Shown: piece by piece, positions 16,885 through 35,309 of the stretch
How positions within the stretch are numbered: position 1 is the first letter of the stretch
Layout of the letters: every line of letters begins with the position of its first letter
Source of the DNA: a virus
Virus record (IMG/VR): IMGVR_UViG_3300028197_000066
Coordinates: 1-35,698 of that record
DNA length: 35,698 nucleotides
Direction: 5' to 3' (one strand)
Translations under genes and position numbers: made by a program
The notes under the pieces: model-generated
What the model was told of the DNA's origin: nothing
Databases searched by the model: none
What the model saw: only the letters and a program-made list of their open reading frames with translations

Positions 16885-17499
16885 ATGTCCAGACAAATTT
16901 TAAGTACCTTCTTCATAACTTGTAGTCTCCTTGCATCCTGTGCTCCACAAGTTCCCTCTAACACTGTGAATGCATCTATTGATGACACAGCAAAGGAGAT
17001 TGTGGAAGTAGAAAAAAGGTTTAAGTGTCCTTCTTGTTCTCCTAATGAAAAAGTTGCTCTTGATTTTCTTCAAGACAGAGGCATCAAAGATAAGTATGCT
17101 CTTGCTACTGTGATGGGCAACATCAAACAAGAGTCTAAGTTTCTCTCTAATATTTGTGAGGGTGGAGCAAGAGTATCATATGAGAATTGTTATTCTGGTG
17201 GTTATGGATTAATCCAATGGACTACATTGAATAGGTATATGGGTCTAGGTAAGTTTGCCAGCAGGTATGACTGTGATCCTAGTGAACTTACTTGTCAATT
17301 GAGATATATGTATACTGAACCTCAATGGATTAAGGCATCAGAGACCTTCAAGACACCTGGTTTGACTGTTGACATATACATGAATGCAGCATATTATTGG
17401 TTGGGTTGGGGTATTCATGGTAATAGAACCTCTTATTCCAATCAATATGCTAGTCAATTTATCCATACAGACAGTTGGAATTCTGGCATAGGCAGTTGA
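16885..17499 (+). CDS. Lipoprotein with phage tail-lysozyme-like domain
   Basis: In this 204-residue protein the N-terminus is a lipoprotein signal peptide with lipobox LASC (Cys19). After a short linker and a CPSC pair, residues from about 55 on resemble phage tail lysozyme domains: VMGNIKQESKF with the likely catalytic Glu, GGYGLIQWTTLNRY and a long C-terminal helical part. The enzyme would cleave peptidoglycan from a membrane anchor. It has its own promoter and lies outside the tail genes. A role in lysis, superinfection exclusion or as a virion lysin is possible; sequence alone cannot decide. Confidence 0.75.
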   Translation: MSRQILSTFFITCSLLASCAPQVPSNTVNASIDDTAKEIVEVEKRFKCPSCSPNEKVALDFLQDRGIKDKYALATVMGNIKQESKFLSNICEGGARVSYENCYSGGYGLIQWTTLNRYMGLGKFASRYDCDPSELTCQLRYMYTEPQWIKASETFKTPGLTVDIYMNAAYYWLGWGIHGNRTSYSNQYASQFIHTDSWNSGIGS

Positions 17500-17524
17500 C
17501 AGACCACTCCCTTAGGTCTATAAT
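17496..17524 (+). promoter_or_regulatory. Consensus sigma-70 promoter of the tRNA cluster
   Basis: An exact TTGACA (17496-17501), a 17-base spacer and TATAAT (17519-17524). A dyad AGACC (17501-17505) / GGTCT (17515-17519) spans the spacer, and GACCACT recurs downstream near 17541. It overlaps the stop of the lysozyme gene and should drive the tRNAs from 17599. Confidence 0.9.
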
Positions 17525-20527: not shown

Positions 20528-20636
20528 CCCTCGTGTTTCCTGGTTCACAAAATCAGGTGGTGGAGTCCTAGGACCCTCTAAGGAATTAGTTATTACCTTA
20601 TAAAAATAACTTGGCGTGCATGGAATTAACTCACTG

Positions 20637-20666
20637 AGGTGCTCTTGACAAAGGGCACCTTTTTTT
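20637..20666 (+). terminator. Rho-independent terminator whose loop holds a -35 box
   Basis: AGGTGC (20637-20642) pairs with GCACCT (20655-20660), and an inner CTT (20644-20646) pairs with AAG (20651-20653), leaving GACA as the apical loop. Seven Ts follow. The TTGACA of the next promoter is at the hairpin tip. Confidence 0.85.
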
Positions 20667-20673
20667 GTAGAAT
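20645..20673 (+). promoter_or_regulatory. Sigma-70 promoter of the glycan cluster
   Basis: TTGACA (20645-20650), a 17-base spacer made of the terminator's 3' arm and U-tract, and TAGAAT (20668-20673). The epimerase ATG is 26 bases downstream. The region 20528-20636 upstream contains no supported gene. Confidence 0.8.
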
Positions 20674-20698: not shown

Positions 20699-21796
20699 AT
20701 GTCTGAATATGGTAAGACAGCACTAGTGCTTGGTGCTGGTGGCTTTATTGGAAGTCATATGGTTAAGAGACTTAGGTCTGAGGGGTATTGGGTAAGAGGT
20801 GTAGACCTTAAATATCCTGAGTATGGTAATACAGAAGCAAATGAGTTTGTGCAAGGTGACTTGCGTGACGCTAGATTTGTCAGTGAAGTTATCCAGTTTA
20901 AAGGACACTCTGGCAACTTCAATGCAAATGTGCCTTATCAATATATCAAACCCTTTGATGAGATCTATCAGTTTGCTGCTGATATGGGTGGTGCAGGATT
21001 TGTATTTACTGGTGAGAATGATGCAGACATCATGCATAACTCTTGTAGCATCAACCTGAACGTTCTAGAGGAAGTTCGTAAACTGAATGCTACCTTTGAT
21101 GGTGTAGTAAAGGACTGGACTGAATGTAATCGTCCTAAACTAGATCAACCTACTAAAATATTCTACTCAGGTTCTGCCTGTATGTACCCTGAGTATAATC
21201 AACTTGACCCTGATAATCCAGACTGTCGTGAAGAATCAGCATATCCAGCAGCACCAGACTCAGAATATGGATGGGAGAAACTATTCTCTGAGCGTCTCTA
21301 CTTTGCTTACAATCGCAACCATGGTATCCCTGTTAGGGTCGCTAGGTATCATAATATTTTTGGACCAGAGGGCACCTGGGACGGTGGAAGGGAGAAAGCT
21401 CCAGCTGCAATCTGCCGTAAAGTCTCTTACCTCCCTGAGGTCGGTGGAGGCATCGAGGTGTGGGGAGATGGCTTACAGACTCGTTCCTTCTTGTTCATTG
21501 ATGAATGCATTGAAGCAACTAGAAGACTGATGGATAGTGATTTCATGGGACCAGTTAATATTGGTTCTGAAGAGATGGTTACTATCAATCAACTTGTAGA
21601 GACTGCTGCTAAGATTTCTGGTAAGGTAGTCAAGAAGGTTTATAAATTAAATGCACCTACAGGTGTCAGAGGACGTAATTCTAACAATGATCTCATTCGT
21701 GAGAAGCTTGGTTGGGATTACTCACAGACTCTTGAAGAGGGTATCAGAAAAACATATGAATGGATTAGTGAGCAGATTGGAAATGAAAAAGTTTAA
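20699..21796 (+). CDS. GDP-mannose 3,5-epimerase-like SDR enzyme
   Basis: In this 365-residue extended SDR protein, the NAD site is LVLGAGGFIGSH (residues 9-20). The active site is SGSACMYPE with Cys161, plus Tyr190-xxx-Lys194 and Lys233 in GGREKAPAAICRK. These align with Cys145, Tyr174, Lys178 and Lys217 of Arabidopsis GDP-mannose 3,5-epimerase at a constant offset of 16. Further shared blocks are HNIFGPEGTW, WGDGLQTRSF and GVRGRNSNNDL. That enzyme converts GDP-D-mannose to GDP-L-galactose (and GDP-L-gulose). Here it opens the glycan cluster and overlaps the GT10 gene by 14 bases. Confidence 0.88.
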   Translation: MSEYGKTALVLGAGGFIGSHMVKRLRSEGYWVRGVDLKYPEYGNTEANEFVQGDLRDARFVSEVIQFKGHSGNFNANVPYQYIKPFDEIYQFAADMGGAGFVFTGENDADIMHNSCSINLNVLEEVRKLNATFDGVVKDWTECNRPKLDQPTKIFYSGSACMYPEYNQLDPDNPDCREESAYPAAPDSEYGWEKLFSERLYFAYNRNHGIPVRVARYHNIFGPEGTWDGGREKAPAAICRKVSYLPEVGGGIEVWGDGLQTRSFLFIDECIEATRRLMDSDFMGPVNIGSEEMVTINQLVETAAKISGKVVKKVYKLNAPTGVRGRNSNNDLIREKLGWDYSQTLEEGIRKTYEWISEQIGNEKV

Positions 21797-32693: not shown

Positions 32694-33468
32694 TCACCTA
32701 GGAGTTCTGGGCAGACTGGGTAACCAGATGTTCCAGTATGCTTCTCTGAGAGGCATAGCAGCAGCAAGAGGATATGACTTTGGTATCCCTCCCTCAGACT
32801 TCTCTGATGAGTGGAGGAACCATCAGTTGTTTGAGGTGTTTGACTTACCATATCTACCACAAAATAATATTAGATTCCTTGACAGTGGTTGTGCTCCTGT
32901 AGTACAAGAAAAACAATACACATTTGATGTCACACTCTTACAGCAATGCCCTAATGAGGTATCACTGTGGGGATTCTTTCAGTCAGAAAAATACTTTAAG
33001 CATATTGAATCAAGCATCAAAGAAGATTTTACTTTCAGGAATGAGATTCTAAATCCCTGTAAAGAAATGATTGGTGGTAATAAGTTTCTGTCTCTCCATA
33101 TCAGGAGGACAGACTACTTGACAAACAGTGAGAACCATCATAACCTGGGTATGGATTATTATGAGGAGGCACTAAACCACTTCCCTGATTGGGATGTAGT
33201 TATCTTCTCTGATGATCCCGAGTGGTGTAAGAAACAAAAACTGTTTCAAGATGATAGGTTCCTCATTTCAGAATCAGGAGATAACAAAGTAGATCTGTGT
33301 CTTATGACTTTATGTAAGGCACATATTATTGCAAACTCTTCCTTCTCCTGGTGGGGCTCTTGGTTGGCAGACAGTGAGAAAGTCATTGCTCCATCCAAAT
33401 GGTTTGGACCACTTAATGAACACAAAGACACATCAGACCTTATTCCTGAAAGATGGCACAGAATTTAA
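32680..33468 (+). CDS. GT11 glycosyltransferase, copy 3
   Basis: This 262-residue protein has GRLGNQMFQYASLRGIAAAR, HIRRTDYLTN, VVIFSDDPEWC and IANSSFSWWGSWLADS. HIRRTDY replaces the HIRRGD of copy 2 (Gly to Thr), a plausible specificity difference. It is shorter than copies 1 and 2, and overlaps the GT25 gene by 16 bases. Confidence 0.85.
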   Translation: MLAFNHLGVLGRLGNQMFQYASLRGIAAARGYDFGIPPSDFSDEWRNHQLFEVFDLPYLPQNNIRFLDSGCAPVVQEKQYTFDVTLLQQCPNEVSLWGFFQSEKYFKHIESSIKEDFTFRNEILNPCKEMIGGNKFLSLHIRRTDYLTNSENHHNLGMDYYEEALNHFPDWDVVIFSDDPEWCKKQKLFQDDRFLISESGDNKVDLCLMTLCKAHIIANSSFSWWGSWLADSEKVIAPSKWFGPLNEHKDTSDLIPERWHRI

Positions 33469-34271
33469 GAGATAAAAACAAGGCACTCCATAAACTTCAG
33501 GGTATGGGTCCTATCTACTGTATCAACCTTGACGATCAACCTGAAAGGTGGCAGTATATGCAAGAGCAGTTTGATTACTGGGGCGTCACTGACGTCACCA
33601 GGATCTCTGGTTATGATGGTAGGGATGATGACCTTAGTGATATCATTAAGGGAAGGTATCCAGATATGATGACTTCTGGTGAGATTGGTTGTACAACTTC
33701 ACACCTGAAAGCAATCAAGCACTGGTACGAGACATCTGACAGTCCTTATGCTATCATTATGGAAGATGACTGTGAGTTAGACCTTGCAAGATTCTGGAAC
33801 TTTACATGGAAAGACTTCTATGCTAAGATTCCTTATGATTGGGATGTCTGCCAGGTGTCTATTATTAGCACTGGTGACATTCACATCAAAATCCACAAGA
33901 GGTTTGTCAATGACTTCTCTACTGCTTGTTATCTAATCACTAGGCATCATGCTGAAAAAATGATTAGGTTGCATTGTAGAGGAGACAAGTACAAACTTGA
34001 TAATGGTGTAAGACCTAGACCTGTTGCTGATGATCTCATCTACAATTCAGGTAACACTTATGCCATTCCTCTTTTGTTATACAAGATTGAACTAGGATCT
34101 AGTATTCATCCTGAACACATTGACATGTTCCACAAGAACAATTATAATGCACAGTTCAACTTCTGGACCAACCAAGGATCCCAGATGTCAGTTGATGAAT
34201 TCATGGATTTTGACCCTTATCTAGGTAGGGTCAGTGCTCCTTCAGGTGGTAATAACCCACCAGAGGGTTGA
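33453..34271 (+). CDS. GT25-family glycosyltransferase
   Basis: This 272-residue protein has IYCINLDDQPERWQYMQEQF near the start, then SGEIGCTTSHLKAIKHW and YAIIMEDDCELD. These are the INL.....R, SG.iGC..SH and ME.DD blocks of GT25 (LPS galactosyltransferase-type) enzymes. It is the last gene of the glycan cluster. The 34244-34262 end carries a GGTGG/CCACC hairpin without a T-run, and a promoter overlaps the stop. Confidence 0.86.
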   Translation: MAQNLRDKNKALHKLQGMGPIYCINLDDQPERWQYMQEQFDYWGVTDVTRISGYDGRDDDLSDIIKGRYPDMMTSGEIGCTTSHLKAIKHWYETSDSPYAIIMEDDCELDLARFWNFTWKDFYAKIPYDWDVCQVSIISTGDIHIKIHKRFVNDFSTACYLITRHHAEKMIRLHCRGDKYKLDNGVRPRPVADDLIYNSGNTYAIPLLLYKIELGSSIHPEHIDMFHKNNYNAQFNFWTNQGSQMSVDEFMDFDPYLGRVSAPSGGNNPPEG

Positions 34272-34780: not shown

Positions 34781-34796
34781 GTTACTGGCAATATGC

Positions 34797-34802
34797 TATA
34801 AT
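34797..34802 (+). promoter_or_regulatory. Candidate extended -10 promoter TGC-TATAAT
   Basis: TATAAT preceded by TGC (34794-34796) is an extended -10. No good -35 is present 17 bases upstream (CTTCTG). Transcription would start inside the adjacent terminator stem. Support is sequence only. Confidence 0.45.
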
Positions 34803-34805
34803 ACA

Positions 34806-34829
34806 GGGGACCATAGGTCCCCTTTTTTT
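34806..34829 (+). terminator. Rho-independent terminator
   Basis: A perfect stem joins GGGGACC (34806-34812) to GGTCCCC (34816-34822) with loop ATA, then seven Ts. The following ATG (34830) starts after one A. Confidence 0.9.
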
Positions 34830-35030
34830 ATGTCATATAAACAAAGAATTTTTTCTTCCCTAACCAATCCAGTACTTCACATAGTCCTTATAATAGGTGG
34901 ACTATTATTATTTGTAGGTCATGTTCATAATGAAACACATAGGACCATAGAATTAGATGTTGATTCATATGTAAAGAAGTTTTGCAATAAAAACAAATCC
35001 ACTTGCAGATCCTATGCAAATGAGGATTAA
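34830..35030 (+). CDS. Small single-pass membrane protein (66 aa)
   Basis: The ATG at 34830 directly follows the terminator run. MSYKQRIFSSLTNPVLH is followed by one membrane helix, IVLIIGGLLLFVGHVHNE, and a C-terminal part with two Cys (KFCNKNKSTCRSY). The two Cys could form a disulfide outside the membrane. Function unknown. Confidence 0.65.
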   Translation: MSYKQRIFSSLTNPVLHIVLIIGGLLLFVGHVHNETHRTIELDVDSYVKKFCNKNKSTCRSYANED

Positions 35031-35034
35031 TTCC

Positions 35035-35063
35035 AAAGGAGCCTTGACAGGTTCCTTTTTTTT
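35035..35063 (+). terminator. Rho-independent terminator with TTGACA as its loop
   Basis: AAAGGAGCC (35035-35043) pairs with GGTTCCTTT (35050-35058) through one G-T wobble, with exactly TTGACA as the six-base loop. Eight Ts (35056-35063) follow the GGTTCC. The T-run is also the spacer of the next promoter. Confidence 0.88.
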
Positions 35064-35072
35064 ATATATAAT
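35044..35072 (+). promoter_or_regulatory. Consensus sigma-70 promoter of hli
   Basis: TTGACA (35044-35049), a 17-base spacer and TATAAT (35067-35072), an exact consensus. The hli ATG at 35100 is 27 bases beyond the -10. Confidence 0.9.
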
Positions 35073-35099: not shown

Positions 35100-35309
35100 A
35101 TGACTGTAACAACCAATGATCGTGGACAACAGAACTTGTTTGCCAAAGAGCCTACAATGTATGTCTCTCAGACTGATGAAGAACGTTACGGTTATGAATC
35201 TTATGCAGAGAGAGCAGAAAAACTGAATGGTCGTGCAGCAATGTTAGGATTTGCTGCAGCCTTGCTTTCTTATGCAATTACTGGTAACCTATTCTTTGGA
35301 CTGCTCTGA
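35100..35309 (+). CDS. hli: High-light-inducible protein (Hli/HLIP)
   Basis: This 69-residue protein has the chlorophyll-binding motif AEKLNGRAAMLGFAAALLSY (ExxNGRxAMxGF) in its single membrane helix, preceded by a soluble N-terminus. Hli proteins protect photosystems from excess light and are common in cyanophages. It has a consensus promoter, and its stop overlaps the next ATG (TGATG). Confidence 0.93.
   Translation: MTVTTNDRGQQNLFAKEPTMYVSQTDEERYGYESYAERAEKLNGRAAMLGFAAALLSYAITGNLFFGLL

Follow-up and report, generated by a model that had tools for sequence, protein, structure and literature searches.

The segment at positions 35035 to 35072 of a marine cyanophage sequence very likely combines an intrinsic terminator and a housekeeping sigma70/SigA-type promoter, which share about 38 bp and point in the same direction between two co-directional genes. 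The sequence is a 35,698-bp virus record (hereafter, the window) from a T4-like marine cyanophage carrying UvsX, ribonucleotide reductase genes and hli, whose nearest relatives are Synechococcus and Prochlorococcus phages. The element and its two neighbouring genes are laid out as follows.

34830–35030, plus strand: upstream gene for a 66-aa hypothetical protein (PHROG 2587), whose transcript would be ended by the 35035–35072 element
35035–35043, plus strand: AAAGGAGCC, the 5′ arm of the hairpin
35044–35049, plus strand: TTGACA, the loop of the hairpin and the −35 box of the hli promoter
35050–35058, plus strand: GGTTCCTTT, the 3′ arm, which doubles as the first half of the 17-bp spacer in the promoter
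35056–35063, plus strand: eight-T run, the terminator U-tract within the promoter spacer (three Ts in the stem, five after it)
35067–35072, plus strand: TATAAT, the −10 box of the hli promoter
35100–35309, plus strand: downstream gene hli, high-light-inducible protein of 69 aa (PHROG 178, E 1e-32)

As the first-pass annotation had described, a 9-base stem encloses exactly TTGACA, with arms at 35035–35043 and 35050–35058 and the loop at 35044–35049; the refinement is that one of the nine arm pairs is G·U. In the RNA fold a tenth pair (T-A) is added, giving a UGAC tetraloop and a stem of 9–10 bp, and the fold energy is −12.7 kcal/mol, which none of 200 shuffled sequences equalled. The same annotation had placed eight Ts after the stem; the run of eight is present, but only five of its Ts follow the stem and three lie inside it. 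The claimed 17-base spacer to TATAAT proved correct (35050–35066), being filled by the 3′ arm, the T-run and the ATA that separates the T-run from TATAAT. The hli promoter matches the consensus at 12 of 12 hexamer positions, with TTGACA and TATAAT at 17 bp, within the 16–18 bp of sigma70/SigA-type promoters, and its predicted start lies at about 35079, some 7 bp past the −10 box. Exact TTGACA-N15–19-TATAAT motifs occur three times in the window against 0.08 expected. The features of an intrinsic (Rho-independent) terminator are likewise present: a stable G+C-containing RNA stem of at least 5 bp with a small loop, a U-tract directly 3′ of the stem, and a position on the same strand just past the upstream gene, whose frame runs from the ATG at 34830 to its stop at 35030, with four bases left between it and the stem. 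Across sites, compensatory changes keep the RNA fold. The geometry of the layout follows from the 3′ arm and T-tract filling the 17-bp spacer, and the −35 box can sit in the loop because the loop alone in a hairpin needs no self-complementarity, so that a fixed hexamer fits there.

Other perfect promoters were seen in the window. The consensus promoter at 17496–17524 has an inverted repeat (AGACC/GGTCT) in its spacer and flank and a tRNA-Arg gene (17598) about 70 bp further on. A perfect TTGACA-N17-TATAAT at 34120–34148 lies within the reading frame 33453–34271 and may be an internal promoter or a chance match.

The window holds a second copy of the fused layout, upstream of an epimerase gene, which reads GAGGTGCTC-TTGACA-AAGGGCACC, seven Ts and then TAGAAT at 17 bp (20636–20673).

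20636–20661, plus strand: hairpin of the second fusion, GAGGTGCTCTT/AAGGGCACCTT, with TTGACA (20645–20650) at its apex
20668–20673, plus strand: TAGAAT, the −10 box belonging to this second copy, 17 bp past its −35 box
20699–21796, plus strand: downstream gene for an NAD-dependent nucleotide-sugar epimerase (Pfam PF01370, E 4e-33)

For hli and for the epimerase alike, we gathered 80 loci on the basis of protein similarity, with no use of the motif in their selection, and fused sites were found upstream of both genes. Once near-duplicates had been removed, the fusion was present at 9 of 43 promoters for hli and at 28 of 60 for the epimerase. The remaining 34 of 43 hli promoters were plain, that is, unfused, so the fusion is dispensable for hli. 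Whether fused or plain, hli promoters usually have 53–57 bp between the −35 box and the start codon, and the position before orthologues is kept. The isolates S-T4, Sf-CH5, Bellamy and SynMITS9220M01 place the fusion likewise before the epimerase, with a weaker −35 box in the last two. An independent scan, in which viral contigs were picked only by exact hexamers plus a T-run, returned at least 114 sites, with a hairpin in at least 24 and, of these, a 17-bp spacing in at least 23. Among the matches listed, 21 of 24 hairpin loci encode at least one protein matching a reference phage, mostly Kyanoviridae, and three have no match. The nearest upstream gene is co-directional at 35 of 38 fused sites, which is weak support since co-directional neighbours prevail in cyanophages in any case (317 of 427 intergenic promoters of the plain kind). 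The search of other cyanophage genomes proposed in the first-pass annotation thus found the architecture again, at 17 bp and with compensatory stem changes.

Several individual loci add to this picture of the sites. L164 bears a near-identical fused pair (ACCACCTCTG-CTTGA-CGGGGGTGGT) 506 bp apart (L164:14707 and 15213), which suggests a gene cassette with matching punctuation at either end, and similar stems occur in Syn1 (L245:5163) and S-CAM9 (L205:39987). P-SSM2 (L412, L417, L422) and P-SSM4 (L229) carry a variant in which the −35 box is weak or absent and an extended −10 (TTTTTTTATGCTATAAT) stands right past the T-run. The contig L306, labelled as a Rhodobacteraceae MAG, bears a cyanophage-type hli (81% identity) and is probably a mis-binned phage contig.

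The stems themselves were examined by a partner-swap test, in which the upstream flanks were exchanged among sites, keeping the composition and breaking the true partners. Pooled non-redundant T-run promoters had a stem around the −35 box in 52 of 68 cases, against 13.9 ± 2.8 when swapped (maximum 23). Among the matches listed, T-run-selected viral promoters had stems in 23 of 85 cases versus a swapped mean of 3.0 (maximum 9), and at the hli loci 18 of 27 had stems versus 3.4 with swapped partners. Swapped partners do sometimes form stems, as would be expected if AT-rich T-run promoters at times pair around the −35 box by chance; however, the observed counts exceed every swap, and the signal is sharply specific for the 17-bp spacing and for the loop centre, hairpin plus T-run at 17-bp promoters centring on the −35 box and falling to zero beyond about four bases. 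Partner swaps, the permuted hexamers described below and the spacing led us to reject chance, which is refuted at the level of the family and is hardly credible as an account of the element, although a single site could be accidental. Within each pairing register, nearly every stem position shows two to four standard pair types, with nearly all sites paired. On these comparisons, the recurrence of the layout with differing yet matching stems is a real design, not a coincidence.

Operators are commonly laid out as dyads overlapping −35 boxes, and the repeat at 35035–35058 is nearly perfect, so the inverted repeat might instead be a DNA element that surrounds the −35 box, either a cruciform or an operator recognised by a repressor or activator, and have no part in termination. 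Against this, the arms differ widely between sites (pairwise identity 0.36–0.56) while pairing is kept, unlike a protein site; the −35 boxes have 0.76–0.94 identity, although the high likeness of the −35 and −10 boxes is partly imposed by site selection. Moreover, stems with one non-Watson-Crick position carry coding-strand G·T in 14 cases versus A·C in 2 (P 0.004; a small sample of 38 stems), a bias in transcript-strand wobble which argues that the fold forms in the RNA and not as a dyad in double-stranded DNA, and the T-run right behind the 3′ arm belongs to the layout. The arm diversity with kept pairing and the G·U bias led us to reject the DNA operator or cruciform, which we consider very improbable. 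A single repeated mobile sequence was also rejected, as the arms are too different. The conserved promoter and changing arms fit a picture in which stems are gained and lost around the promoter; at hli, most promoters are plain.

The same association emerged when terminators were taken as the starting point. Among 293 non-redundant cyanophage terminators, 36 had TTGACA in the loop and TATAAT 17 bp on (one mismatch allowed in each), while permuted hexamers gave a mean of 0.41 and a maximum of 6; other spacings yielded five cases at 16 bp and two at 18 bp. TTGACA ranks best among its 180 permutations in terminator loops. In a set of 338 terminators, the bin just past the T-run held 105 −10 boxes against about 15 in typical bins, and 55 of these 105 were accompanied by TTGACA (at most one mismatch). 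For 85 non-redundant −10 fusions, a −35 box was present in 43 and an extended −10 in 19.

Across the 109 strong terminators of eight marine Kyanoviridae (each a genome or near-complete record), 29 had a −10 box at the fused position, 10 of them with TTGACA in the loop (at most one mismatch), whereas the controls (S-TIM5, T4, KVP40, PSS2, P-SSP7 and 150 kb of E. coli) gave 7 of 122 and 0 of 122, respectively (Fisher P 1.6e-5 for −10 placement and 4e-4 for the loop −35). The freshwater member S-CRM01 showed −10 placement at 5 of 18 terminators and a loop −35 at 0 of 18, and no fusion was found in the 10 terminators of Syn9. The absence of the TTGACA fusion from T4 and KVP40 excluded a general T4-like trait. 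A host-derived signal was rejected as well: a search of 101 host-family genomes for the T-run promoter pattern gave three matches, of which none had the 17-bp spacing, and 0 of 15 host cyanobacterial terminators were fused, a small sample in which few strong host terminators were found.

A related fusion, in which the predicted start lies inside the hairpin, stands before the very 66-aa gene whose 3′ end bears the 35035–35072 element.

34794–34829, plus strand: fusion of the second type, with an extended −10 box TGCTATAAT (34794–34802), a hairpin (34805–34823) and a T-run leading into the ATG at 34830

Its predicted start, at about 34809, would fall inside the hairpin, and because the 5′ arm lies between the −10 box and this start, the promoter's own RNA would be without the hairpin. 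Terminator-anchored profiles placed −10 boxes 14–17 bases before the loop centre in 33 of 236 cyanophage terminators (L126, L155, L223 and L305 are examples). The T-run leads into a start codon at 19 of 32 sites of this second type, many of which come from one orthologous family and so represent fewer independent cases, compared with 30 of 177 terminators that have no fusion of either type and 3 of 82 first-type sites. In the T4 lysozyme gene e, the 5′ strand of an RNA hairpin contains a late promoter, and the read-through and promoter-derived transcripts behave differently (PMC3014915). Its promoter overlapping an RNA hairpin recalls the logic of 34794–34829; the T4 case, however, involves a gp55 late promoter and blocked translation (PMC3014915), whereas 35035–35072 has a sigma70-type promoter after the hairpin, plus a U-tract.

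We propose that a polymerase arriving from the upstream gene would transcribe the arms of the 35035–35072 element, the RNA hairpin would form with the polymerase positioned on the U-tract, leading to release of the transcript; free holoenzyme would read TTGACA and TATAAT in duplex DNA and start hli about 7 bp past the −10 box. The earlier proposal that one 38-base element ends the upstream transcript and starts hli gains comparative support from the recurrence, the covariation and the 17-bp spacing, and both activities would take place during infection. The element would insulate hli from read-through, and economy of space may be the selective reason for the fusion. The first-pass suggestion that RNA folding and duplex-DNA recognition may compete or cooperate is better recast, since the hairpin forms in the RNA and the −35 box is read in the DNA, a separate molecule. 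Mutual exclusion would come from polymerase occupancy: a polymerase that is terminating sits over the promoter, and one bound at the promoter blocks the terminator, so that the two uses should alternate. In Synechococcus elongatus, ends resembling intrinsic terminators account for a minority of transcript ends, which makes the efficiency of the predicted terminator in the host uncertain (PMC13289151). With most transcript ends in this cyanobacterium not being canonical intrinsic terminators (PMC13289151), the hairpin might mainly stabilise processed 3′ ends of the upstream mRNA or partly attenuate, with common read-through into hli and a supplementary promoter; stem stabilities of −12.7 and −16.9 kcal/mol, together with the U-tracts, fit the usual terminator anatomy, and we regard this account as unlikely. 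Beyond the combined terminator and promoter that we favour, a relay is conceivable, albeit doubtful, in which the host polymerase releases the upstream RNA, stays on the DNA over the overlapping promoter and restarts with sigma. If so, upstream transcription would feed into the downstream gene, yet the two RNAs would remain distinct, and coupling, beyond the saving of space, would be what is selected.

In open-licence papers, we found no description of the −35-in-loop layout as a class; the first-pass annotation had likewise named no standard class for such hairpins. The promoters of phage N4 are hairpins in single-stranded DNA recognised by the virion polymerase. There too a hairpin coincides with a promoter, but in the cyanophage element the −35 and −10 boxes are spaced as in an ordinary duplex promoter and it is the RNA that folds; a full −35/−10 pair at 17 bp and the transcript-strand G·U bias set the element apart from an N4-type promoter, in which a single-stranded DNA hairpin takes the place of these boxes. 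Lambdoid morons are single genes with their own promoter and terminator, which flank the gene separately, whereas the fused cyanophage element is common to two neighbouring genes. The intergenic repeats of Halovirus HF2 were rejected as a precedent, being promoters with no described terminator. In bacteria, intrinsic terminators are found near the next promoter, and polymerase stays on the DNA after RNA release and is recycled (Kang et al. 2020, PMC6978380; Song et al. 2024, PMC11347151; recycling after termination is also treated in PMC6978322), with restart shown in vitro and stated as not shown in vivo (PMC11347151). These systems share with the cyanophage element a hairpin terminator and, behind it, a promoter that the DNA-retained polymerase can reach, but their sites are separate and up to about 1000 bp apart, whereas the cyanophage element shares bases and its −35 box is the loop (PMC6978380, PMC11347151).

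Fused elements of this kind offer natural templates for tests of polymerase restart and, for engineering, a punctuation part of very small size. Checking terminator loops for −35 boxes would improve transcription maps of marine cyanophages. Overall, these results indicate that terminators and promoters, which are usually annotated apart, can be one covarying element, and that such elements are common in abundant marine viruses.
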